The position numbers and the translations under genes are program-made. A model generated the notes under the pieces. It saw nothing but the letters and a program-made list of their open reading frames with translations, searched no databases and had not been told where the DNA came from. Positions 8,027 through 23,489 of a stretch of 64,000 nt of DNA are shown piece after piece. Positions within the stretch are counted from its first letter, which is position 1, and each line of letters opens with the position of its first letter. The DNA lies in the NCBI GenBank assembly GCA_030655135.1, contig JAURWC010000079.1:1-64000 (forward strand), given 5' to 3'. This DNA comes from Hyphomicrobiaceae bacterium (GTDB lineage Bacteria > Pseudomonadota > Alphaproteobacteria > Rhizobiales > Hyphomicrobiaceae).

Positions 8027-10471
8027 ATGGTGCAGGTTCTTGCCTGCCTAACGATGCAACACGACTGGCGACTTGTCGTGCTTGCAACGACTATCTGTTT
8101 TGCGACAAGCGTTGCCGCGTTCAAGCTCCTTCATCGCGCGCGTGCCGCATCCGGTGCACGACGAGCTCTGTGGCTGGCGGCCATCGGGGCGGCAGTCGGC
8201 TACGGAGTCTGGGCAACGCATTTCATCGGGATGCTCGCTTTCGACGCCGGCGTCCCGGTCGAATACGATTTCCCGCTCACAGCGCTCTCGCTTCTGGTCG
8301 CAGCCAGTGTAACAGGCTTCGGCTTTGCCATTGCAGCCGAACGCCAGGATAGATGGGCTGCTCCGGTCGGGGGGGGCACCATCGGAGCCGGCGTGGCCAT
8401 CATGCACTATACGGGCATGTGGGCCATGGATGTGCCGGGACAAATGCACTGGTCCACCGATTTAATTCTTGCCTCGATCCTGCTGGGCATAGGCTTCGCG
8501 AGCGCGGCCATGTTTGTCGCCTCACCCGACAGCGGGGGCAGGCAAACATTTGCCGCCGCGCTCTTGCTGACGCTCGCCATCACGAGCCATCACTTCACGG
8601 CTATGAGCGCTGTTGTGATCATTCCTGATCCGACAATTCCCGTCGTCGCGGTGGCCCTATCATCGTCGGCGCTCGCCATGACGATCACGGTCGCCGCAGT
8701 TGCCGTGCTGGGTATCAGCCTTGTTGCGGCGCTGGCCGATAGCGCGCAGGCACACCTGCGAGCGTCGTCGGAACGAGAACTTGCTGAACAGAGTAAGCAA
8801 CTTCAGGCTGCCTTGACCAACATGCCTCAGGGTCTGTGCATGTTCGATGGCCAACAGCGCATCCTGGTCACGAACGCACGTTATAGGGAAATGTATGGCC
8901 TTACGCTCGAGCAGACTAGGCCGGGTATCAGCTTCCGGCAGCTTCTCCAGAACCGTGTAGACCACAGAATGTTTCCGGCTGGATCAGCGCCGGATGATTA
9001 CGTTGCCGAAGTGCTGGCTTGTTTAGCGCGAGGTTCTGCCTGGACGCAAGTCACCGAGGTTCCGGACGGTCGGATCATTGCGGTTTCCAATCGCACCATG
9101 CCCGGAGGGGGTTGGGTCGCCACGCACGAGGATATCACCGAGCGTCGAAGTATTGAATCTCGGCTCGCGCACATGGCCCACCACGATACCCTCACCGGCC
9201 TGCCGAATAGGGCTTTATTAAGGGAGAGGTTGGAGACGGCCCTTGCGGCAATCGTAGGATCCGACGGAGAACTTGCCGTCATTTTGTTGGATCTTGACCG
9301 GTTTAAGGAGGTCAATGACACATTGGGCCACGCGGCTGGCGATACACTGCTTAAACAGGTGGCCGAACGTTTGAGGGTTTGTGTGCGGGAAGGGGATACG
9401 ATTGCGCGGCTCGGCGGCGATGAATTTGCCATAGTTCACCGCATTAAGAGCGCGGACCACGAAACCACGGCTCTTGCCGTGCGCATTCAGGAAACGATCG
9501 CTGCGCCTTTCATTCTCAATCACAACCAGATGGCCATTGGGACAAGCATCGGAATCGCCATCGCACCGCAGGACGGCTCCGACCCTGATCATCTGATGGA
9601 CCACGCCGATCTAGCCCTTTACCTTGCGAAGATGGAAGGCCGTGGCAGATCACGGTTTTTCGAACCAGCCATGCATAGGCGGATGCACGAGCGTCGTGAC
9701 CTAGAGCATGATTTGAGAGCAGCCCTCGCGAAGGGGCAGTTCAACCTCCATTACCAACCCCTGGTGAATATTGCGCGAGACGAAATATGCTGTTTTGAGG
9801 CCCTTCTGCGCTGGACTCATCCTGAGCGGGGCAATATTCCGCCAGCGCGATTCATACCCCTCGCTGAGGAAACGGGCCTTATCGCACCGATTGGAGAATG
9901 GGTGTTGCGGGAAGCATGCAAAGCCGCGGCAAGCTGGCCCTCGAGCATCAAGGTAGCGGTGAATGTATCGGCGGCGCAGTTCAAATCCCGCGACCTCGTC
10001 GCAATAGTTGTCGGGTGCGTGGCTTCATCCGGCCTGTCGCCCCAACGTCTCGAACTTGAGATTACGGAGACCGCGATGTTGCAGGATGAGGTCGGTGCAT
10101 TCGCGCTACTATCGCGCATGCATGACCTGGGGGTGCATATCGCGTTGGATGATTTCGGGACGGGCTATTCTTCGTTGAGCAACCTGCGCAAGTTCCCTTT
10201 CGACAAGATCAAGATCGATCAAAGCTTCATTAGGGATCTGTCGCCCACGAACTTAGACGCCATAGCCGTTGTTCGCTCCATAGCGCAGCTCGGGGAAAGC
10301 CTGAAGATGACGACGACGGCTGAGGGCGTCGAGACCGAAGAACAACTGGATTACGTGAGGGCACAGGGATGCTCTGAGGCGCAGGGTTTTCTCTTTAGTC
10401 CGCCTGTGCTGGCAGACGAAGTCACGCCACTTTTGAGGTCCTACCGACCAGTTTCGATGCGAGTGGCGTAG
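8027..10471 (+). CDS. MHYT-PAS-GGDEF-EAL cyclic di-GMP enzyme
   Basis: Membrane protein of 814 residues. The N-terminal MHYT sensor has about seven helices (15-235) with the repeated metal-ligand motifs ATHFIGM, MHYTGM and HHFTAM; MHYT domains are thought to sense gas or redox through bound metal. A PAS domain (about 255-375) is followed by a diguanylate cyclase with intact RLGGDEF and a phosphodiesterase with intact EALLRW, ELEITET and DDFGTGYSS. Both making and breaking cyclic di-GMP are therefore possible; which dominates is unknown. A GGAG site precedes the ATG. Its place beside a PilZ-controlled glycosyltransferase suggests it sets the local cyclic-di-GMP signal for that module. Confidence 0.92.
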   Translation: MVQVLACLTMQHDWRLVVLATTICFATSVAAFKLLHRARAASGARRALWLAAIGAAVGYGVWATHFIGMLAFDAGVPVEYDFPLTALSLLVAASVTGFGFAIAAERQDRWAAPVGGGTIGAGVAIMHYTGMWAMDVPGQMHWSTDLILASILLGIGFASAAMFVASPDSGGRQTFAAALLLTLAITSHHFTAMSAVVIIPDPTIPVVAVALSSSALAMTITVAAVAVLGISLVAALADSAQAHLRASSERELAEQSKQLQAALTNMPQGLCMFDGQQRILVTNARYREMYGLTLEQTRPGISFRQLLQNRVDHRMFPAGSAPDDYVAEVLACLARGSAWTQVTEVPDGRIIAVSNRTMPGGGWVATHEDITERRSIESRLAHMAHHDTLTGLPNRALLRERLETALAAIVGSDGELAVILLDLDRFKEVNDTLGHAAGDTLLKQVAERLRVCVREGDTIARLGGDEFAIVHRIKSADHETTALAVRIQETIAAPFILNHNQMAIGTSIGIAIAPQDGSDPDHLMDHADLALYLAKMEGRGRSRFFEPAMHRRMHERRDLEHDLRAALAKGQFNLHYQPLVNIARDEICCFEALLRWTHPERGNIPPARFIPLAEETGLIAPIGEWVLREACKAAASWPSSIKVAVNVSAAQFKSRDLVAIVVGCVASSGLSPQRLELEITETAMLQDEVGAFALLSRMHDLGVHIALDDFGTGYSSLSNLRKFPFDKIKIDQSFIRDLSPTNLDAIAVVRSIAQLGESLKMTTTAEGVETEEQLDYVRAQGCSEAQGFLFSPPVLADEVTPLLRSYRPVSMRVA

Positions 10472-11378: not shown

Positions 11379-11453
11379 GTGAACAACATAATTTACATTG
11401 TTGGTTTGGTCGTCGTTGTGTTGGCGGTCCTGGGCTTTCTTGGACTGCGTTGA
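11379..11453 (+). CDS. 24-residue single-pass membrane peptide
   Basis: A GTG-started frame of 24 codons gives MNNIIYIVGLVVVVLAVL followed by a short Gly-Leu-Arg end: one hydrophobic helix with almost no tail. AAAGGA lies 6 bases before the GTG. Very similar tiny membrane peptides are common, usually unannotated or hypothetical, in Hyphomicrobiales (from memory, not checked). It heads a run of three small genes and follows a possible stress promoter. Function unknown. Confidence 0.65.
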   Translation: MNNIIYIVGLVVVVLAVLGFLGLR

Positions 11454-11486
11454 TCCACAGCATAGGTCTGCCCAAAGGCCACAACA

Positions 11487-11708
11487 TTGCTCTCCATTAC
11501 GTGCGTAATCCCGGCGGTCTGGCTGGTGTACACCTCGAGGGCCTGGTGGCTCGCCCGTCGAGATTGGCAAAGCCTCTCGTCCGATACGAAAGCGTTTTAC
11601 CTTCTCGTGGCTCCGCCGATCACACTGGCCCTCGACCTCTTCCTGCTCTTGGACAAATTGTTTTATTCACCGTCTCTGGCGCGAGATCACGCGGCGGATG
11701 CACGATGA
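11487..11708 (+). CDS. Small membrane protein of unknown function
   Basis: 73 residues from a TTG start at 11487 with AAAGG 8 bases before it. Two hydrophobic stretches (about 2-16 and 38-56, with ITLALDLFLLLDKL) suggest one or two membrane helices separated by a basic, Trp-rich loop (RAWWLARRDWQ). Its TGA overlaps the ATG of the next gene (ATGA), a sign of coupled translation. No family was recognised. Confidence 0.55.
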   Translation: MLSITCVIPAVWLVYTSRAWWLARRDWQSLSSDTKAFYLLVAPPITLALDLFLLLDKLFYSPSLARDHAADAR

Positions 11709-11941
11709 TAAGGCATGCGGCCTTCATGATCGCCCTTCTGGCCTTGCCGTATAGCGGATATGCAGCCGAGCACGATTGTATGCAGGAGCATCCGGCTGCT
11801 GTGGACGTGGGTCCTAACGAACCGGCGCTCGGGCGAGTGCGCCGGCCCGACCTCTCGCCCGCCGAAGCATCGGCACTCCAATATCGGGATGGTCAGTCAG
11901 AAGTCAGCGCGGATGACATTCGTGCTAGAAAAGTCGACTGA
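11705..11941 (+). CDS. Small secreted protein of unknown function
   Basis: 78 residues. The N-terminus (MIRHAAFMIALLALPYSGYA) is a signal peptide with likely cleavage after YAA; the short mature part is acidic and Pro/Glu-rich with one Cys near its start. The ATG overlaps the preceding stop, so it is the third member of a small-gene operon. No domain was recognised. Confidence 0.55.
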   Translation: MIRHAAFMIALLALPYSGYAAEHDCMQEHPAAVDVGPNEPALGRVRRPDLSPAEASALQYRDGQSEVSADDIRARKVD

Positions 11942-14671: not shown

Positions 14672-15841
14672 GTGAACGCAAGTCGATCGGCTTCCCCAGA
14701 TCATCCGGCGATCACCCTACTGATCGTCGATGATGAGCATCAGGCGTTGAAGTATTTCGCGCGGCTGTTCAGCTCGGATTTCGAGGTGATCACTTGCCAA
14801 AGCGCTGAAGAGGCGGAAGCAATCTTCGAAGCGCGCCAGGGCAAGATCTCGGTCATCGTCAGCGATCATCAGATGCCGACGACCACCGGCGTTACCCTCC
14901 TGGCGCGCGTCAAGGAGCGGTGGCCCCAAACCGTGCGGCTGCTCACGACGGCATATGCCGACACCGAAAGCCTGGCCGCCTCGATCAACGAAGCCTCTGT
15001 TCACCGCTACATTGCGAAACCCTGGGATCTCGATCACCTGCGCGATGTGCTGAAAGATGCCTCGCAGACCTACGCCCGCAACAACACCAATCCTACCCCT
15101 CCTGTCGGCGGCGCATCCCAGCTGCCGCCACTCGTTGGGGCTGTCGCGCATGAGCTGGCAACACCCCTTCTCAGCATCGAGATGACGTCCAAATCGATAC
15201 TCCATGCCGTCCGCGACCAGCTTGCCGTGACGCCAGCTGAAACGCAGCCTGACATGGCCGTGACGCTCGACCGGTTCGCCAGGGCGGCACAGCGCATAGG
15301 CGAAGATGCGGCCCGCGCCAGGCGCCTCGCGCGCTCGCTTGCCGAATTGGCCCGCGATTCCACTGCACGATCTGCCTTTATGCGCATCACCATTGCGCAA
15401 TGCGTCAGACGCGCGGTCGAAAGCTTCCCGTATCAAGACAGCGAACGAAGCACCGTTTCGATGGACCTGGCGGATGATTTCAGTTTTGTCGGCACCGAGG
15501 TTCTGATGACGGCGGTCATGACCAACGTCCTCAGCAACGCCTTGGACGCCACCCGCAAGCATGCCGATCCCCGGGTCTGGATCGAACTGAAGCGTGGCGA
15601 CACCTACAACAGCGTGTTCGTGCGGGATAGCGGCTCGGGCGTGCCGCAACACATCGAGGGCTCTGAATTCAAGCCCTTCGTCACCGGAAAGGACGACGGC
15701 ACAGGACTAGGCTTGTCGATCTGCGATTGGATCGTCCGCTCGTTCGGGGGCGGCATCGCGTTGCGATCGATTACCCCGCCCGCGGTAACGGAGCTCGAGA
15801 TCCGCCTGCCGCACCCATCCCCCCATGCGGCCAGAACTTAG
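14672..15841 (+). CDS. Receiver-histidine kinase fusion, PhcR-like
   Basis: 389-residue soluble protein with an N-terminal receiver (acid pocket Asp20/Asp21, phospho-acceptor Asp65, Lys116) and a complete C-terminal kinase: VAHELATP with His160, N-box NVLSNALDATRKH, DSGSG and GTGLGLSI for ATP. A receiver with a kinase as output is the unusual layout reported for PhcR of Ralstonia quorum sensing. GTG start with GGAG 6 bases upstream. The receiver is clearly related to that of the convergent neighbour (both have ALKYF/TLKYF, LLTTAY/MLTTAY, YIAKPWD/YIVKPWD), so they probably share the same upstream kinase. Confidence 0.85.
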   Translation: MNASRSASPDHPAITLLIVDDEHQALKYFARLFSSDFEVITCQSAEEAEAIFEARQGKISVIVSDHQMPTTTGVTLLARVKERWPQTVRLLTTAYADTESLAASINEASVHRYIAKPWDLDHLRDVLKDASQTYARNNTNPTPPVGGASQLPPLVGAVAHELATPLLSIEMTSKSILHAVRDQLAVTPAETQPDMAVTLDRFARAAQRIGEDAARARRLARSLAELARDSTARSAFMRITIAQCVRRAVESFPYQDSERSTVSMDLADDFSFVGTEVLMTAVMTNVLSNALDATRKHADPRVWIELKRGDTYNSVFVRDSGSGVPQHIEGSEFKPFVTGKDDGTGLGLSICDWIVRSFGGGIALRSITPPAVTELEIRLPHPSPHAART

Positions 15842-15912
15842 CCCAAGGCTGCCCAGTCTACGCGAGTGTTGGAGCGATCTGCCGATTGAGTATATGGCAA
15901 ACGCCGGCCCTG

Positions 15913-17118
15913 CTATGCGGGCCAATCTTCAAAATGTTGGAACAGTTTCTGCAGCCAGTCGGCGCGCACCTCGGGCACCTGAGCCTTGGCGGCGTCGTTC
16001 GGCACGGCTACGACCGCCGTCAAGCCGGCGCTATCGCGTTTCACCTTTATGCTGCCACCGCATTCGCGTGCAGCGAGATATGAAGCAAAGAGCTGTCCCG
16101 GCTCTGCCGCGCCCGCTCGCGCCGCAGCGCTGTAGAGCACACTATCGGCACCGCGTGTCACCTCACGCGCCGCTACACGTAGCTCGGTGCCTGGCGTGCC
16201 TTGAACCTGCCCGCCGGCCAGCGAAACATGGACATCGCCGCCGTCCGGCGCTGCCCCGATCAAGGCCGACAGTGTCCCCGCGACGATGCCGCGCAAAACC
16301 GCCGCCGGCACATCGGTCGTCGCCGCAGCAGCGTCGTCCACCACCACCCGCACCTTCGCCGCGGTGGCCTGTGATGCGGTCTCCGACACCGCCTCTTTCA
16401 ACACGGCCGACAACGATGTTCCAGCCTTGGCGCTGGCGGCACCCAGCTCTCCGGCGACGCGTGCCGCTGCCGCAGCGACCCCGCTCATGTGTTTGGCCTC
16501 CGCCTGCGGCTGCGACCACAGGTCGAGCGCACCGGCCTCATTGAGCGACGGCGAGGCCGTGAAGTTGGCCGCGCAATCGCGCACGTAATCGTCGACCGCC
16601 AGACGTGCGTGACGCAGCTGCGGAAGAGCTGCCGCAATCACGGCGAGATCGCGCGCACGATCCACCGCCATCATGCGCTGGCGAACGATGAGCTTCTCGC
16701 CGATCAACAGCTCGCGCTCAGTTTGCAAGCTGAACACCAGCAGACCTGTCTTTATTTCCTGCCGCAGCAAATCGAAGTCCCACGGCTTCACGATGTAGCG
16801 GAAGATCTCGCCGCGGTTTACCGCCTCGATCGCATCGTCCAGCTCCGAATAGGCCGTCGTCAGCATGCGCACGATGCCGGGGTGTTTGCGCCGCACCGAG
16901 TTCAACAGGCTCACGCCGGAGCGTCCCGGCATTCTCTGATCCGAGATGATGACGCCGATCTTGCCCGGATTGGCATCGACGATCGCTTCGGCCTCGTCGG
17001 CAGACGGCGCGGTGAGCACGGGAAAATCCTTGGCGAAGGCGCGCTCGAAATATTTCAAGGTCTGCCGCTCGTCGTCTACGAGCAGAATCGCCAGCTCAGC
17101 CGTGGGACGAGATTGCAT
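15913..17118 (-). CDS. Receiver protein with degenerate kinase-like output, PhcR-like
   Basis: 401 residues. The receiver (about 9-125) has Asp15/Asp16, phospho-acceptor Asp60 and Lys111, and continues into a long helix. The C-terminal ~230 residues are Ala-rich and resemble a kinase fold in length and order, but have no recognisable H-box, Asn-box or Gly-boxes, so it probably cannot phosphorylate. It may be a decoy or a protein-interaction output. Its ATG lies inside the end of the kinase gene upstream (23-base overlap), so kinase and regulator are made together. Confidence 0.82.
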   Translation of the reverse strand: MQSRPTAELAILLVDDERQTLKYFERAFAKDFPVLTAPSADEAEAIVDANPGKIGVIISDQRMPGRSGVSLLNSVRRKHPGIVRMLTTAYSELDDAIEAVNRGEIFRYIVKPWDFDLLRQEIKTGLLVFSLQTERELLIGEKLIVRQRMMAVDRARDLAVIAAALPQLRHARLAVDDYVRDCAANFTASPSLNEAGALDLWSQPQAEAKHMSGVAAAAARVAGELGAASAKAGTSLSAVLKEAVSETASQATAAKVRVVVDDAAAATTDVPAAVLRGIVAGTLSALIGAAPDGGDVHVSLAGGQVQGTPGTELRVAAREVTRGADSVLYSAAARAGAAEPGQLFASYLAARECGGSIKVKRDSAGLTAVVAVPNDAAKAQVPEVRADWLQKLFQHFEDWPA

Positions 17119-19735
17119 CTACTGCGCCTTTCATTACCATTCTTGCTTCCAACGGCAGATCGAAAGACAGCTCTGCCCACTGCCCCTCTTCACTCTGCGC
17201 CGTCAGCGTACCACCGTGACTGTTGATGATGCTGTGGGATATGCTGAGACCAAGCCCCGTACCGGTTCCCACGTCCCCGGTGGTGTAGAACGGGTCGAAG
17301 ATGCGCGACAGCTTGTCTGCCGGAATTCCGCACCCGTTATCCCTGACGGCCACGACCAGGCGATCACCCCGCACCTTGGCCGAGACCTTGATTGCGCCGA
17401 GCCGTTCCAGCTTCTGACGCCGGATGGCCCGCGCGGAATTGAGAAGGAGGTTCACCAACACCTGCACGACCTGCGATTCGTTTCCGACCACCATATCTGC
17501 GTCCGGCAGGTCGGTCTTGATCTCAATTCCGGATCTTTCGCTGGCCGTAAAGCGCAGCGCGTGCTGCACGGCAGTCGACACATGGAACGGACGGCGCGCT
17601 TCCGCCTTGGTGGGCGCCGAAAAGAGCCGCAGGTCCGATACGATGGTTTGGATCCGCCGGAACCCGTCATGAATGTCGACCAGCATTTCCTTCAGGTCGG
17701 CATCAGCTTCCAGCGCCGGGTTCTGCATGACGAGCGAGAACGCCGTGTTCGCGAAATTGATCGGGTTGTTGATTTCGTGCAGCAAGCCGGCCGCCATGGT
17801 GCCAAGCGCGTTCAGCTTTTCCGAATGCAGCAGCTGCGATTCCGTCTCGCGCAACCGCCGCAGAACTTGCTCCAGGTCGGTATTGCGCGCTTTCAGGTCT
17901 TTCTCCAGCTTGCCCGCTTCGATCAGGTTGCGCAGCCGCGTTTTGATCTCGACGCTGGAGAACGGCTTCGTCATGAAGTCGTCGGCGCCGTTATCTAGCG
18001 CACTCAGCTTCGCTTCGTCGTCGGCGCGCGCCGTGAGCATGACGATTTTCATGCCTTCGATATTCTCGCGGCGCTTGAGAGTTGCGCACACCGCAAGGCC
18101 GTCGATCTTCGGTAGCATGAGGTCCAGAAGCACGATGTCCGGCCTCAATTCGATCGCCGCAGCAAGCCCCGCCTCGCCGTCGCCGGCCTGATAGACATTG
18201 TAGTCGCTATCCAGCATGGCCTTGAGATAGCGTTGCATCTCCGGCTCGTCGTCGACGACGAGCAGCGTCGGCCGCGTGTACCCAAGCTCCGCCGGCTCGG
18301 GCACACCCGCGCGCTCCGTCGCGACCATCCCCCAGGAAACCTCACGCACGGCCTGGCGATGAAACGTCGTGATCGCGTCGACCGGCTCGGTGGAAGGATC
18401 GATCGCCTCGCTGCCTTCCGGTGCCATCGGCAGCGCAACGGTGAAGGTGGTGCCCTCGCCGCGCGCGCTCGTGACGCTGACCTCACCTCCCATGCGCTGC
18501 ACGAGATCCTTGACCAGTGCCAGGCCGAGCCCAAGCCCCTGCTTGCGCCGCGCTGACGAACTGTCGGCCTGCTGAAAGCGCTCGAAGATGCGGTCGAGGC
18601 TTTCCGCGTCGATCCCGATCCCGTTGTCGGCGACAGAAATATAGGCTCGGTCGTCGCGGACATCGGCCGCAACGCGGATCTGCCCGCCCTTCTCAGTAAA
18701 CTTGATGGCGTTGCTCAGCAGATTGATGAACACACGCTCCAAGGCCGCAGCGTCACCCTCCACCACGACCGGCTGGCCAGGGAGTTCGCTGATGAGTTGC
18801 AGCTCCTGCGTTTTTGCCAGATGGCCCACTTGTTCCACGAGCGAACTGACAAGACGGCGGGCATCCACCGGCAAACGTTCCAGCTTCACGTCACCCTGCT
18901 CGAAGCGGATCAGATCGAGAAGATCGTTCACGAGCCGCAACAGCCGCAAGGCCGACTGCTCGATGATGCGCAAAGGTTCGCGCAGAGCCGTCGACCGCGC
19001 TTCGATGCGCCGCTGCAAATCCTGCACTGGGGCGAGAATGAGCGTCAGGGGCGTCCTAAGTTCGTGACTGACATTGGCGAAGAACTCGGATTTGACGCGA
19101 TCGAGCTCCGCCAGCTGCAGGTTGCGCTGTTCAAGTTCGCGCTTCAGCACGAACTCCGTGAACCGCCGCCGCGTGCTGAAATACACTGCCGTGACACCGA
19201 TGGTGCTGGCCAGCAGCATGAAGAAGACGTTGTTGATGAAGCGCGGGGTGTCGAAGCCCGTTTCCTGGTGCAGCAAGCAAGCCAGCACGTAAACGGCCAA
19301 GATCAGCACGGAGAACAAGATGACGTCGCGCACACTGAGCGGCAGCAGGATCCCGATGGCCAGCGGCGCCAACACGAGCGACTCGTAGTACGTCGAGCGC
19401 GTCCCATCGATCGCATAGATCATGTAGGCGATCATCAGGCAGCCCGTGCCCAGCCACAGGTTGATGAGCAGGGTCGGATGCCGCTCGCCAAACTCGGTCC
19501 AGTGCAGAGCGATCACGCCCAGCACGCAGATGATCGCGATGATGCGATACCCCGTCAGCTCCGCGACGAACTGCGGATGCGACGTGACGTCGACGATCAC
19601 GCCGCCCGGTATCAGGAACAGCATCAACCACGCGCCAATCTTCGACTGATCGAAGCGCAGTTTGCGCTCTTCGGCGTCGAAGTCGCGTCGCACGCTTGGG
19701 TTCACCGTATCCGGCGCAGCGGTCATCGGCCTCAC
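17096..19735 (-). CDS. Membrane hybrid kinase: kinase-receiver-kinase, PhcS/CqsS-like
   Basis: 879 residues. Six membrane helices (about 30-190) without a large periplasmic loop, as in CqsS, LqsS and PhcS, which read diffusible lipid-like signals. First kinase: VSHELRTPLT, NLLSNAIKF, DNGIG, GLGLGLAL. Receiver: VVDDEPEM, acceptor Asp in VLLDLMLPKIDG, Lys in MTKPF. Second kinase: LLHEINNP, NLLLNSARAI, DNGCG, GTGLGLSI. Both kinases look intact, which is uncommon. GTG start at 19735 overlaps the methyltransferase TGA (GTGA); ATG at 19726 is the alternative. It probably senses the product of the methyltransferase and passes phosphate to the two adjacent receiver proteins. Confidence 0.87.
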   Translation of the reverse strand: MRPMTAAPDTVNPSVRRDFDAEERKLRFDQSKIGAWLMLFLIPGGVIVDVTSHPQFVAELTGYRIIAIICVLGVIALHWTEFGERHPTLLINLWLGTGCLMIAYMIYAIDGTRSTYYESLVLAPLAIGILLPLSVRDVILFSVLILAVYVLACLLHQETGFDTPRFINNVFFMLLASTIGVTAVYFSTRRRFTEFVLKRELEQRNLQLAELDRVKSEFFANVSHELRTPLTLILAPVQDLQRRIEARSTALREPLRIIEQSALRLLRLVNDLLDLIRFEQGDVKLERLPVDARRLVSSLVEQVGHLAKTQELQLISELPGQPVVVEGDAAALERVFINLLSNAIKFTEKGGQIRVAADVRDDRAYISVADNGIGIDAESLDRIFERFQQADSSSARRKQGLGLGLALVKDLVQRMGGEVSVTSARGEGTTFTVALPMAPEGSEAIDPSTEPVDAITTFHRQAVREVSWGMVATERAGVPEPAELGYTRPTLLVVDDEPEMQRYLKAMLDSDYNVYQAGDGEAGLAAAIELRPDIVLLDLMLPKIDGLAVCATLKRRENIEGMKIVMLTARADDEAKLSALDNGADDFMTKPFSSVEIKTRLRNLIEAGKLEKDLKARNTDLEQVLRRLRETESQLLHSEKLNALGTMAAGLLHEINNPINFANTAFSLVMQNPALEADADLKEMLVDIHDGFRRIQTIVSDLRLFSAPTKAEARRPFHVSTAVQHALRFTASERSGIEIKTDLPDADMVVGNESQVVQVLVNLLLNSARAIRRQKLERLGAIKVSAKVRGDRLVVAVRDNGCGIPADKLSRIFDPFYTTGDVGTGTGLGLSISHSIINSHGGTLTAQSEEGQWAELSFDLPLEARMVMKGAVDAISSHG

Positions 19736-21123
19736 ACGGAAATCTCGAGAAACACGTTGAGATGTGTGTCGTCGTCATAAACACGCGTGGGAAAGTCCGT
19801 GGGCGAGATCGCCCGCATGTCTTCGATGCTGCGGTGGATGATATGCCAGTCCACCACGTGCTCCATGATCCAGCGGGTCGGATTGTCGGGATGCACGTTG
19901 GTCGCCATCACCATGCCGCCGGGCACCGTCCAGCGGCAGAACAGCGTGAGCAGCCGCTGGCAGATGCGATCAGACAGATAGTCGAACAAGCCTGCACAAT
20001 AGATGAAATCAAATTCTCTGATCTCGCCGTTCTCTCCGGCGATCGATTGCTTCAGCAGCTCATGCACCGACCGCTGGACGAACGTGACGTCCATCGGCCG
20101 GTTCGCATCCCGCATAGCCTCGCCGACTTTGTCCTTTGCGTACGCTAGCGTCTCTTCATTGAAGTCAAGCAGCGTGAACTTCAACGCGTCTGCGGCGTCG
20201 CATTCACGGATGAAGCGTTGGATTTCGATCGATGGCCCGCAGCCGACGTTCAAAACCCTGAGCGTCGCGTTGCGCGATTTCGCTTCCCGCGCGCGCTCTT
20301 CCAGGCGCTGCTGCAGGATCGTCAGCCGGTTGCGATGCGCGCGGGCAAGGCCAGCATCCAGATAGAAATCATTGATGAGCTGGGAATACGTCGTTGGCCC
20401 CTCGCGGTCAGCGCGGGCAATCATGTTGACCATTTCGTAATCGCCCGCGTAACCAAGCGGCTTGGTGTACGAACGATGAAAAAAGGGCGCACGCATCATT
20501 AATGGCAGAAGATCGCGCTGCGCGAAGCTGCAATGCGACTCCAGCTCGTCAGCCGTGACGTTCTTGGCTTCGTATTCGAAACGTTGTTGCAACTCGATCA
20601 TTTTTGGCAGCAGCGGAGATTTTAAATTATCGAAGAATTCCGGGCTGAGTCCGGTATTGACGTCGATTGCTCCTTCGTCGTGCATTTCCAGCTGAGCCAA
20701 CCAGAGATTGAGCTGAGAAAGGAACGATCTGAGTTCACCGACGGCAATCTGATATCCTGGCCGGATTCTTTTAGTTTTTTCCCAATCTCCGACGAAGATA
20801 CCCACAGCATTCGACACATCCTCCCGGCCTTGCAGCACGAGCGACATGTCCTGCCACCCGTCGACCAGGGTTGCAGAAACGATGAGCATAAGCCCTGTAT
20901 TCACAAGGCTGCTGACGACGGCCTTGCCACGATAGATGGGGTCTTCGCCCCGCCGGATGACGAGCTCTCGAAGAACTTCGCTCAGCTGGACGATCGAATA
21001 TGGATTATAGACTTCGAAAACAACCGACGATCGGCTGACCCGTAAAAGCGTTCCGCGTGCCGGTATTCCCTGAGAGTTGCTGAATGTAATCAGATCACTG
21101 ATTGAATTCGTGAATGCCGACAT
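19732..21123 (-). CDS. SAM-dependent methyltransferase with PilZ-like N-terminus, PhcB-like
   Basis: 463 residues. The N-terminal ~110 (RGTLLRVSRSSVVFEVYNP through YRGKAVVSSLVNTG) look like a PilZ-type beta-barrel without the classical cyclic-di-GMP Arg motif. A helical middle part follows. The Rossmann methyltransferase (about 290-450) has motif I VLNVGCGPS, acidic LLDFNEE and FDFIYCAGLFDYLSD. Its order before a six-helix kinase matches phcB-phcS, where PhcB methylates a 3-hydroxy fatty acid to give the volatile signal. AGGG lies 6 bases before the ATG. Substrate is inference; other small-molecule methyltransferases are possible. Confidence 0.75.
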   Translation of the reverse strand: MSAFTNSISDLITFSNSQGIPARGTLLRVSRSSVVFEVYNPYSIVQLSEVLRELVIRRGEDPIYRGKAVVSSLVNTGLMLIVSATLVDGWQDMSLVLQGREDVSNAVGIFVGDWEKTKRIRPGYQIAVGELRSFLSQLNLWLAQLEMHDEGAIDVNTGLSPEFFDNLKSPLLPKMIELQQRFEYEAKNVTADELESHCSFAQRDLLPLMMRAPFFHRSYTKPLGYAGDYEMVNMIARADREGPTTYSQLINDFYLDAGLARAHRNRLTILQQRLEERAREAKSRNATLRVLNVGCGPSIEIQRFIRECDAADALKFTLLDFNEETLAYAKDKVGEAMRDANRPMDVTFVQRSVHELLKQSIAGENGEIREFDFIYCAGLFDYLSDRICQRLLTLFCRWTVPGGMVMATNVHPDNPTRWIMEHVVDWHIIHRSIEDMRAISPTDFPTRVYDDDTHLNVFLEISV

Positions 21124-21193
21124 TCGCTACCCTGCTTAGAATCTGGCAGAAACGGAGTGAATATCTGGCATTTCTTGCCGATTCACAAACGTT

Positions 21194-21214
21194 GCTGAGT
21201 TCCTTTAACTCAGC
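21194..21214. promoter_or_regulatory. Perfect inverted repeat in a divergent promoter region
   Basis: GCTGAGTT (21194-21201) and AACTCAGC (21207-21214) are exact complements around CCTTT. It sits in the 219-base gap between the divergent methyltransferase and response-regulator genes, where an operator or a leader hairpin would act on both. Confidence 0.45.
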
Positions 21215-21342
21215 CTGAATGATTGGCCAACAAACTTTACCGCAAACAGATAGCGTAGTGCTAATCGATCACTCGGCACCGGAAAAGTGGGTGCAATTAC
21301 CGGCAGCACCGAATGATCCGACCCCGATAGAGTTCGGCAGAC

Positions 21343-22350
21343 ATGTTCCCATACTTCTACCCGACGACCGTTGCGATCATCGACGACGACCTGCGCTTCT
21401 TGGAAAGCTTCGACGAGCTGTTGCGGCGCGAGTTCATCGTTCGCCGCTTCGCCAACCCGCAACTTGGCTTAAATCATCTCGTAGGCGCCGACGCCGAACA
21501 TCTATCCCGCATTGCCCGCCTGGGCGCGTATGCCACCTCGCATAATTCACCCGCAGATGAATTCGATCGGCTGCAAATTCTGCTGTCGTCCTACATCGGC
21601 CAGCTGCGAGGCTATCCCAATCGTTTTGAAACGGTTTCTGTCGCCATCGTCGACCTCAACATGCCTGGTGTTGATGGCCTGATGATCTGCCGCGCACTAC
21701 GGCGCCGGCCAGTCAGAACCATCCTGCTCACCGGAAACGCGAGCGAGAAGGTCGCGCTCAGCGCCTTCAACGAAGGCTTGATAGACCGCTTCGTCTCCAA
21801 GCACGAACCCGATCTGATGACGATCATCGCATCACACGTCCGCGACCTGCAGAACGCGTATTTCCGGCGCGTTACCACCACCATCAAGGACACGCTGGCC
21901 CTGCAGTGCCTGCGCTTCATGACTGACGGCGCCTTCTTGCGCTTTTTCGCGGATGCCTGCGCGGAACACAGGATCGTGGAGTATTATCTCAAGGCCGACC
22001 CGCCGGGCGTAGAACTGATCCGCTCAGACGGGCAAACGGTCATTCTGATGGTGCTGGACGACCAGGAGGTCCACCGACGCATTGCGGCAGCACGAGACGC
22101 GGGCGGCCCTCCCGAAATGCTGGCGAAAATGGAGAGCGGTGAGATCGTCACGCACTTCCCATCCGAAGGCGGCTACTACGCCCCGAATTTCCGCGATCAC
22201 TGGCCCCGCTATTCGTTCCCCGCCACCCCCGTGGTTGGCGCCACGAGATGGCTGACGGCAAAATTGAAACCAACCGACATCCGCCCGTTCGCGTTGCGCG
22301 ATTTCGTATCGTTCGATTCCTTCGTACGCGAGCGTGCAGACTTGCACTAG
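21343..22350 (+). CDS. Response regulator with enlarged receiver domain, LqsR-like in size and context
   Basis: 335 residues. The acidic pocket (IIDDD, 14-16) and the acceptor Asp104 (VAIVDLNMPGVDG) are about 90 residues apart, where normal receivers have about 40, so roughly 45-50 residues are inserted after the first helix. The Thr (ILLTGNAS) and Lys (FVSKHEPD) switch residues are present. The C-terminal ~150 residues have no DNA-binding motif and match no output domain known to me. It is divergent from the PhcB/PhcS-like pair. LqsR of Legionella is similar in length and also lacks a standard output, but homology is not shown. Confidence 0.78.
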   Translation: MFPYFYPTTVAIIDDDLRFLESFDELLRREFIVRRFANPQLGLNHLVGADAEHLSRIARLGAYATSHNSPADEFDRLQILLSSYIGQLRGYPNRFETVSVAIVDLNMPGVDGLMICRALRRRPVRTILLTGNASEKVALSAFNEGLIDRFVSKHEPDLMTIIASHVRDLQNAYFRRVTTTIKDTLALQCLRFMTDGAFLRFFADACAEHRIVEYYLKADPPGVELIRSDGQTVILMVLDDQEVHRRIAAARDAGGPPEMLAKMESGEIVTHFPSEGGYYAPNFRDHWPRYSFPATPVVGATRWLTAKLKPTDIRPFALRDFVSFDSFVRERADLH

Positions 22351-22388: not shown

Positions 22389-23195
22389 TCAGGCGTCGGT
22401 GCTGGCTTCAATTGGCGGGACGTCCTGGCTCCAGAACAGCGCCTGCCCGATAACCGCGCGAACCATGTCGGCGCGGAAGGGCTTGGTGATAAGAAACGCC
22501 GGCTCGCGGCGCAGTCCGGTCAACAGGCGTTCGGGAAACGCGGTGATGAAAATTGCCGGCACGTCCCGGCTTTGGAGAATTTCCTCTACGGCTTCGATGC
22601 CGCTGGAATCGTCAGCCAGCTTGATATCCGACAAGATGAGATTGGGTTTCACCGACTTTGCCTTCGCGACCGCGCTGGCACGCGTTCGCGAAATGCCGAC
22701 GACGTTGTGCCCCAGGTCGGTGACGATGCTCTCCAGGTCGACCGCGATCAACGGCTCGTCCTCGATGATCAACACATTGACCGCACGTTGAGCCGCGATC
22801 TGCCGCTGCGCCAGCTTGAGCGCGGCGTGCAGCTCTGCCTCCGGCATTTCCAGGATGTGTGCAGCAGCGGACGGAGAAAACCGCTCCATTGCCACGAGCA
22901 GATAGGCTTGGCGCGCCCGCGGCGTCAGCCGGATCAACTGACGCTGAAGTTGCTCAGGCTGGCGCTTGCGCACTTGCTCCGTCGAACGCCAGTAGTCACC
23001 GACCGGGCCAGTCCAGATGCGGGACAGAAGCCGGTAGAGGCGCTGCTTGTCCAACCCCTCTTCGGCCTCGCAATACTCTGCGTCTTCCAAAGTGAGAGAC
23101 ACCAGCGCATCGCCGAGGTGTTGGCTGCCGGTCAATGTCCGCGCATAGCGTCGCAAATCCGGGAGAAATGGGATTACGTCGATCATCTGCCGCAT
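22389..23195 (-). CDS. phyR: PhyR-type general stress response regulator
   Basis: 268 residues. The N-terminal ~125 are an EcfG-sigma-like domain (LPDLRRYARTLTGSQHLGDALV, then LTPRARQAYLLVAMERFSPSAAAHIL), the C-terminal ~120 a receiver (LIIEDEPLIAVDL, acceptor Asp in LILSDIKLADDSSG, ITAFPE, LITKPF). When phosphorylated, such proteins bind the anti-sigma NepR and free EcfG. ATG at 23195 is chosen over TTG at 23216 because GAGGA lies 7 bases before it. nepR and ecfG, often neighbours, are not seen here. It converges on the LqsR-like gene. Confidence 0.92.
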   Translation of the reverse strand: MRQMIDVIPFLPDLRRYARTLTGSQHLGDALVSLTLEDAEYCEAEEGLDKQRLYRLLSRIWTGPVGDYWRSTEQVRKRQPEQLQRQLIRLTPRARQAYLLVAMERFSPSAAAHILEMPEAELHAALKLAQRQIAAQRAVNVLIIEDEPLIAVDLESIVTDLGHNVVGISRTRASAVAKAKSVKPNLILSDIKLADDSSGIEAVEEILQSRDVPAIFITAFPERLLTGLRREPAFLITKPFRADMVRAVIGQALFWSQDVPPIEASTDA

Positions 23196-23489
23196 CTGAG
23201 TATCCTCGCCGGACAATAATGAACCAACGGGCCATTCGCGGCGCCGGAAACGATGCAGTGGCGGGCTTTGCCACTAGGGGCGCTGCACAAGCGCATGCTG
23301 CATCCGATCGGGAAGAGTAACTAGATCGTTCGTTTAGAAACGGACCTTATGATTACCCTAGCTAACCTGGGACCGACAACAAAGAGTTATGCCTTTCGCC
23401 TGCTCATTTTTCTGAACGTTGACAGACAAAGCTACGCCAATAGAGTGCAGCGCAACTCTCACCCCCCTTACATAAGGAAAACGTTGCCG

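Follow-up and report, generated by a model that had tools for sequence, protein, structure and literature searches.

In a 64,000-nucleotide stretch of contig JAURWC010000079.1 from a Hyphomicrobiaceae bacterium (Alphaproteobacteria; assembly GCA_030655135.1), which as a whole is referred to here as the window, five neighbouring genes appear to form a Phc-type cell-cell signalling locus of unusual build, in which a candidate signal synthase, its sensor and the relays behind it lie together; we put the probability of this synthase-sensor-relay reading at roughly 0.7. The Phc system is known from the plant-wilt bacterium Ralstonia, and by sequence homology each product of its phcX-B-S-R-Q set has a counterpart in the window, since the methyltransferase corresponds to PhcB, the sensor kinase to PhcS, a protein of 389 amino acids (aa) to PhcR, one of 401 aa to PhcQ, and the product of a divergent gene to LqsR/PhcX. 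While the Phc system itself is already known, what is new here is a variant with a tandem sensor and a separately recruited LqsR. Considering the double length of the sensor and the different downstream partners, the signal probably elicits another response than in Ralstonia.

Organisation and conservation of the locus

Open reading frame calls on the window confirmed all five genes with the lengths, order, strands and overlaps that a preliminary description of this DNA had given. The genes of the PhcB-type S-adenosylmethionine-dependent methyltransferase (19732-21123), the kinase (17096-19735) and the PhcQ-type regulator (15913-17118) make up a single overlapping row on the minus strand: the methyltransferase stop and the kinase start overlap in GTGA, as read directly in the sequence, and the kinase gene and the 401-aa gene share 23 bases. 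On the plus strand, the PhcR-type gene (14672-15841) converges on this operon, and the LqsR/PhcX-type gene (21343-22350) diverges from it. This is the gene set of Ralstonia sp. SET104, where the order is LqsR-type gene, methyltransferase, short kinase, REC-kinase and REC, i.e. phcX-B-S-R-Q, and where the LqsR-type gene likewise adjoins phcB; the arrangement differs, however, as the window has an operon of B-S-Q type with the R-type gene convergent, whereas Ralstonia has one operon, B-S-R-Q. Gene-order comparison, which the preliminary description had proposed, bears out its Phc reading.

The five genes also recur in a sister species of the same genus (genome G001), at protein identities of 70-78%, with the kinase there truncated by a contig end and the homologue of the 389-aa protein truncated by the stretch taken. 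Between the window and G001, the ratio of non-synonymous to synonymous substitution (dN/dS) is 0.08-0.19 for the five genes, at a dS of 1.2-2.2 that is near saturation. Conserved in a second species under purifying selection, the five-gene set is more than a product of chance.

We surveyed loci of this kind in named genomes, taking the best 80 of at least 579 relatives of the methyltransferase. A kinase class could be assigned in 71 of the 80, the remaining nine being cut, broken or unclassed, and the classes follow taxonomy: the kinase is short (~442 aa) in 36/36 classed betaproteobacterial loci and long (~880 aa) in the 35/35 others, four of which belong to Pseudomonadota of unstated class. 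The long-kinase loci, among them those of Hyphomicrobium, Filomicrobium, Salinisphaera, Nitrococcus, Planctomycetota and Opitutaceae, share with the window a methyltransferase, a kinase of the same tandem build and, mostly, a PhcQ-type gene; unlike the window's genus, none of the others has an LqsR-type neighbour within flanks of up to 10 kb.

The candidate signal synthase

The 463-aa protein has a methyltransferase domain by Pfam and aligns over its full length with the named Cupriavidus and Ralstonia copies at 45-47% identity; it is a full-length homologue of PhcB, and its size is close to the 464-468 aa given for Ralstonia PhcB in the available text of PMC8578825. In a tree that omitted L007 (motif not found) and L043 (long branch), it forms one clade with the PhcB-type proteins (support 100/100), the outgroup being five methyltransferases of its own class. 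The 24 rows from outside Betaproteobacteria are paraphyletic in this tree, and a constraint holding them together was not rejected (approximately unbiased test, p-AU 0.116). Fifty residues are invariant over 48 aligned methyltransferases, the betaproteobacterial ones included.

Among the 80 loci, identity to the window's protein falls from 78% in the sister species to 60% in Filomicrobium and 59% in OFTM230; it is 43-50% in Gammaproteobacteria, Hyphomicrobium, Planctomycetota, Verrucomicrobiota and deltaproteobacteria, and 45-47% in Cupriavidus, Ralstonia sp. SET104, Paraburkholderia and Hydrogenophaga. A match was found in 5 of 60 near relatives, counting the genome itself and one weak match (G057), and in 8 of 398 genomes of the phylum, namely its own, one partial match in its own order and six of another class (two families, full length, 43-47% identity). 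Within its own class, a search of 385 genomes returned besides the protein itself only distant relatives at 22-33% identity, present in 33 of them, the window's included, at an E-value of 1e-20.

These wide-ranging relatives bring in the most serious alternative, in which the Phc architecture serves another ligand and the enzyme methylates a different carboxylic acid, be it another acyl chain, a peptide or a cofactor. The clade branches deeply and has members in several phyla, distant homologues are common in Alphaproteobacteria (the 33 of 385 genomes above), and the substrate is putative. On the other hand, synthase and sensor stay linked across loci, each matching its counterpart in Ralstonia, and the 50 invariant residues extend to the betaproteobacterial enzymes. 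We regard another ligand as possible, though clearly the less favoured option, and its odds overlap with those of the Phc-type reading; that the signal is the 3-hydroxy ester itself seems to us, from homology, somewhat better than an even bet.

A structure model of the methyltransferase (predicted local distance difference test, pLDDT, 83.7) places a strand-rich domain with six strands at residues 8-86. There is a hint of a PilZ fold at this N-terminus: the PilZ profile matched none of 7 PhcB-type N-termini and both of 2 distant homologues from the class, one of them above the cut-off, and hhalign of the N-termini gave a probability of 8.6. The rows of the alignment VIA-align mostly cover residues 180-463, so that the N-terminus is hardly probed by it. 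The distant relatives in the class (L008-L036) are mostly ~490 aa long, some with an N-terminal PilZ match.

A tandem sensor kinase

Pfam recognises two HisKA/HATPase pairs and one REC in the 879-aa kinase, and a simple Kyte-Doolittle scan gives six hydrophobic segments in residues 33-184; the protein reads as a sensor of six transmembrane helices followed by a first histidine kinase (HK1), a receiver and a second histidine kinase (HK2). This sets it apart from PhcS, which is single and ~442 aa long. The presumptive phospho-residues are His224 in HK1, Asp538 in REC and His653 in HK2, the last being the equivalent of PhcS His230. In Ralstonia sp. SET104, the H-box His of the PhcS-type protein is residue 230, the number of the tested PhcS residue in the available text of PMC11960443.

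The N-termini of the long kinases match those of betaproteobacterial PhcS with an hhalign probability of 100 (E 3e-54, 198 columns), and the PhcS kinase is matched by HK2 at 41% identity (E 3e-91) and by HK1 at 34% (E 5e-32), each E-value referring to a single comparison. L048 (long) and L093 and L107 (short) were excluded from these comparisons, and the HK2 profile was built from strict-motif rows only, the motif being present in 19/35 long kinases. Four LqsS-type N-termini from relatives, used as a negative control with a thin profile, went unmatched at probabilities of 1.7 (long) and 0.1 (short), and they too have several hydrophobic segments. On these profiles the window's six-helix sensor is of the PhcS type and not of the LqsS type. 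Together with the methyltransferase clade, this match upholds the Phc half of the earlier label "Phc/Lqs-like".

The kinase tree, which retained 10 of 20 chosen long kinases (strict motif), sets long apart from short and resolves nothing further. Two histories fit: the window's kinase may have arisen from a PhcS by insertion of an HK1-REC module behind the sensor, or PhcS may have arisen from a tandem kinase by loss of that module.

Could the locus instead be a relay like that of the Leptospira proteins LvrA and LvrB, which acquired a sensor and a methyltransferase? A tandem HK-REC-HK protein paired with a REC-HK protein is indeed what LvrA and LvrB offer, the NCBIfam LvrA model aligns to kinase residues 199-861, and LvrB is the best structural match of the PhcQ-type model described below. 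Yet the LvrA score of 329.5 bits is far under the family cut-off of 1200, HK2 is PhcS-like, and the sensors differ, LvrA carrying a PAS domain and lacking transmembrane segments according to the available text of PMC5863495, in whose main text the word methyltransferase does not occur. We consider such an origin improbable.

PhcR- and PhcQ-type relays

The 389-aa PhcR-type hybrid response regulator combines a REC domain (Pfam, 2.8e-17) and a HATPase domain (6.3e-15) with a HisKA-like helix that stays below the cut-off; its receiver Asp is Asp65, and His160 lies in the helix. It is 28-29% identical to the PhcR-type proteins of Cupriavidus and Ralstonia loci. A REC-kinase gene lies near the methyltransferase in 35/36 short-kinase and 20/35 long-kinase loci; in Filomicrobium and OFTM230 it is convergent, as in the window, and the order B-S-R-Q occurs in 4 of 10 gammaproteobacterial tandem-kinase loci (L048, L049, L051, L054). 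The kinase half of the 14672-15841 product is also the genome's best match to the LqsS-type kinase domain (28%, 72 bits).

The 401-aa protein is of a different kind. REC, with receiver Asp60, is its sole Pfam domain, no phospho-accepting His motif was found in its kinase half, and over the receiver part it is 46-49% identical to the PhcQ-type proteins of Cupriavidus and Ralstonia loci. Its AlphaFold2 model (pLDDT 88.5), built on an alignment (A3) that includes one wrong row, L059, has as best PDB match in Foldseek the REC-kinase LvrB (8vc9, E 6.8e-12), at a TM-score of just 0.32 that denotes a poor whole-chain superposition. With L059 excluded, an H-box-like stretch with His is seen in 7/8 planctomycete and deltaproteobacterial rows and not in the window's row, and the betaproteobacterial rows are shorter. 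Model and alignment make PhcQ look like a former receiver-kinase whose decay left a binding protein, a view that would suit the binding and stabilisation of PhcA by Ralstonia PhcQ reported in the accessible part of PMC13320629. The two PhcR-like outputs of the preliminary description must therefore be revised to one PhcR-type protein and one PhcQ-type protein with a decayed kinase half.

A Phc-type cluster is also carried by the Paraburkholderia graminis plasmid pPHS1_P, typed as conjugative (L006, 8983-13358), with a lone 134-aa receiver at the place expected of the phcR-type gene.

The LqsR/PhcX-type regulator

The divergent gene, previously taken for an extra regulator, encodes in fact an LqsR/PhcX homologue of 335 aa: REC is a partial match in Pfam, and phmmer aligns residues 5-327 with the LqsR structure 6sy9 end to end (E 2.3e-35), with the receiver Asp104 kept.

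Does its presence make this an Lqs-type system, signalling with an alpha-hydroxyketone? LqsR-type genes occur in 7 of 60 relatives, the window's genome included, and they stand with LqsA- and LqsS-type genes in G007, G052 and G041, with an LqsS-type gene only in G030, and with neither in G024. Our searches of the window's own genome found no full-length LqsS orthologue and no LqsA orthologue, the best LqsA match of 117.5 bits being at the level of other aminotransferases (up to 134 bits in G007, against 579.6 bits for the G052 orthologue). Lacking an Lqs-kind synthase and with a sensor unmatched to LqsS-type N-termini, the window is very unlikely to encode such a system, and the Lqs half of the earlier label fits the LqsR gene only. 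Less probable still is a chance neighbourhood of a methyltransferase and two-component genes, for although receivers and kinases are abundant, a Phc-type kinase with matching sensor domains follows the methyltransferase in 71 of the 80 loci (the rest being cut, broken or unclassed), and a PhcQ-type receiver is near by in 67 of those 71.

Within the Phc-type reading, the LqsR gene has a history of its own. A tree in which the window and sister-species proteins form a single clade with PhcX from Ralstonia and from G669 and G737, two Cupriavidus-like genomes whose phcS are 73% and 93% identical to that of C. necator, was rejected (p-AU 0.005), and again when rerun without three long rows (p-AU 1.05e-5). 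Since this constraint fails, the trees indicate that lqsR joined Phc clusters at least twice and that the window's copy was recruited separately from Ralstonia PhcX. The capture in Ralstonia is described in PMC10653808, whose available portion also counts 16 alphaproteobacterial genomes with PhcX/LqsR. An LqsR gene lies inside the stretch examined in 4 of the 80 loci (L044, L105, L106, L115); in G669 and G737 it is ~12.5 kb and ~10.7 kb from the methyltransferase gene, so 10-kb flanks miss such distant cases.

The start codons of the lqsR-type and phcB-type genes are separated by a divergent promoter region of 219 bases (21124-21342). It contains a palindrome (arms 21194-21214), which the sister species does not retain intact.

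Output of the system and proposed mechanism

In the mechanism we propose, the methyltransferase would turn a (3-hydroxy) fatty acid into a diffusible methyl ester, which the six-helix domain of the kinase would sense. HK1 would autophosphorylate at His224 and hand the phosphate on to Asp538 in the REC of the same protein, and this receiver may then set the PhcS-like HK2 (His653), as is thought for Leptospira LvrA, where His218 donates to Asp524 of the same protein and to LvrB (available text of PMC5863495). HK2 would in turn phosphorylate the PhcR-, PhcQ- and LqsR-type receivers. No DNA-binding domain was found among the five genes and no PhcA orthologue in the genome, and for these reasons output may go by protein contact via LqsR, and perhaps via a neighbouring PhyR paralogue.

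As to PhcA, E. coli LrhA, which is akin to it, was tried as a bait and set aside, as the LysR genes matched were mostly ~300 aa and not PhcA. The published length of PhcA is 347 (available text of PMC8578825). The bait adopted was a 340-aa LysR gene ~22 kb from the methyltransferase gene in G737, presumed to be PhcA from its place and conservation. It has orthologues at 76-96% in 3/3 further betaproteobacterial genomes, the one in SET104 lying ~14 kb from phcB, provided that L115 comes from contig G800:C19. Unlike in the Ralstonia system, no orthologue of this presumed PhcA was found in the window's genome (G000), where the best match (26%, 70 bits) scores below betaproteobacterial paralogues (119-137 bits), nor in G001 (no match at 1e-10) or G015 (best 101 bits, 29%).

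Next to the lqsR-type gene, and convergent with it, lies a second gene of the PhyR type (22389-23216, minus strand), sigma-like plus REC, whose membership of the cluster is suggested by position. Its product matches PF22233 (1.5e-14), PF22029 (2.6e-11) and REC (2.4e-11), with a partial match to PhyR_sigma2 (positions 3-33 of 55), and the sister species has an 80% orthologue at the corresponding position. The genome's other PhyR is on contig C17 with an extracytoplasmic function (ECF) sigma factor and two HWE kinases. The family-level relative G015, a metagenome-assembled genome in pieces, has 7 PhyR matches, some partial, and two of these genes flank its phc cluster (L138, contig C27, 245-1090 and 8690-9469). 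A single clade of the four phc-adjacent PhyR rows was rejected (p-AU 0.0002), so the adjacency in G015 was not inherited together with that in the window. No PhyR was found in the 21-kb Filomicrobium stretch (L045) or in the Hyphomicrobium loci, and the G016 contig, at 5 kb, is too short to show one. Two close PhyR copies in G015 sit on short contigs.

From its position, the second PhyR is a lead as a candidate output, with a parallel in Leptospira, where the REC-kinase LvrB passes phosphate to the anti-sigma regulator LvrC (available text of PMC13269768). Carried further, a PhcB-kind quorum signal might feed into the general stress response of Alphaproteobacteria, in that a tandem Phc sensor of ancestral type would drive LqsR and a dedicated PhyR paralogue in place of the LysR regulator PhcA; this would be an independent rewiring, parallel to the capture of lqsR as phcX in Ralstonia. 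We find this extension doubtful.

Several points weigh against our overall interpretation. The usual drivers of PhyR are HWE kinases, to which the window's kinase does not belong by Pfam, and PhyR is linked to the cluster by position only. The kinase is double the size of PhcS, the phcR-type gene is convergent and outside the operon, and 15/35 tandem-kinase loci have no phcR-type gene in the stretch examined, some of which are cut. The identity of the signal is carried over from Ralstonia by homology at 45-47% identity, and the phosphate path is a reading of motifs and of the analogy with LvrA.

Distribution and significance

According to a 2023 paper, phc clusters are restricted in occurrence and lie in Betaproteobacteria. 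Here, synthase and sensor of this kind occur as a pair in Alphaproteobacteria, Gammaproteobacteria, Planctomycetota, Verrucomicrobiota and deltaproteobacteria, and the sensor is the longer one in all 35 of these loci with a classed kinase. Full-text searches of a literature mostly outside subscription journals turned up no title or opening abstract that describes tandem-kinase Phc loci, and two PilZ papers among the matches (PMC10576176, PMC10667535) are unrelated. Whether signalling by 3-hydroxy esters is widespread thus becomes testable beyond a plant pathogen, as do the role of the extra kinase-receiver module and the way in which LqsR/PhcX, a receiver without a DNA-binding domain, produces an output, given that in the trees LqsR joined Phc at least twice.

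Elsewhere in the window, a 163-aa frame at 11450-11941, a putative gene, has no Pfam match at 0.001, and ~4 kb from the cluster an MHYT-PAS-GGDEF-EAL protein of cyclic di-GMP turnover is encoded at 8027-10471.

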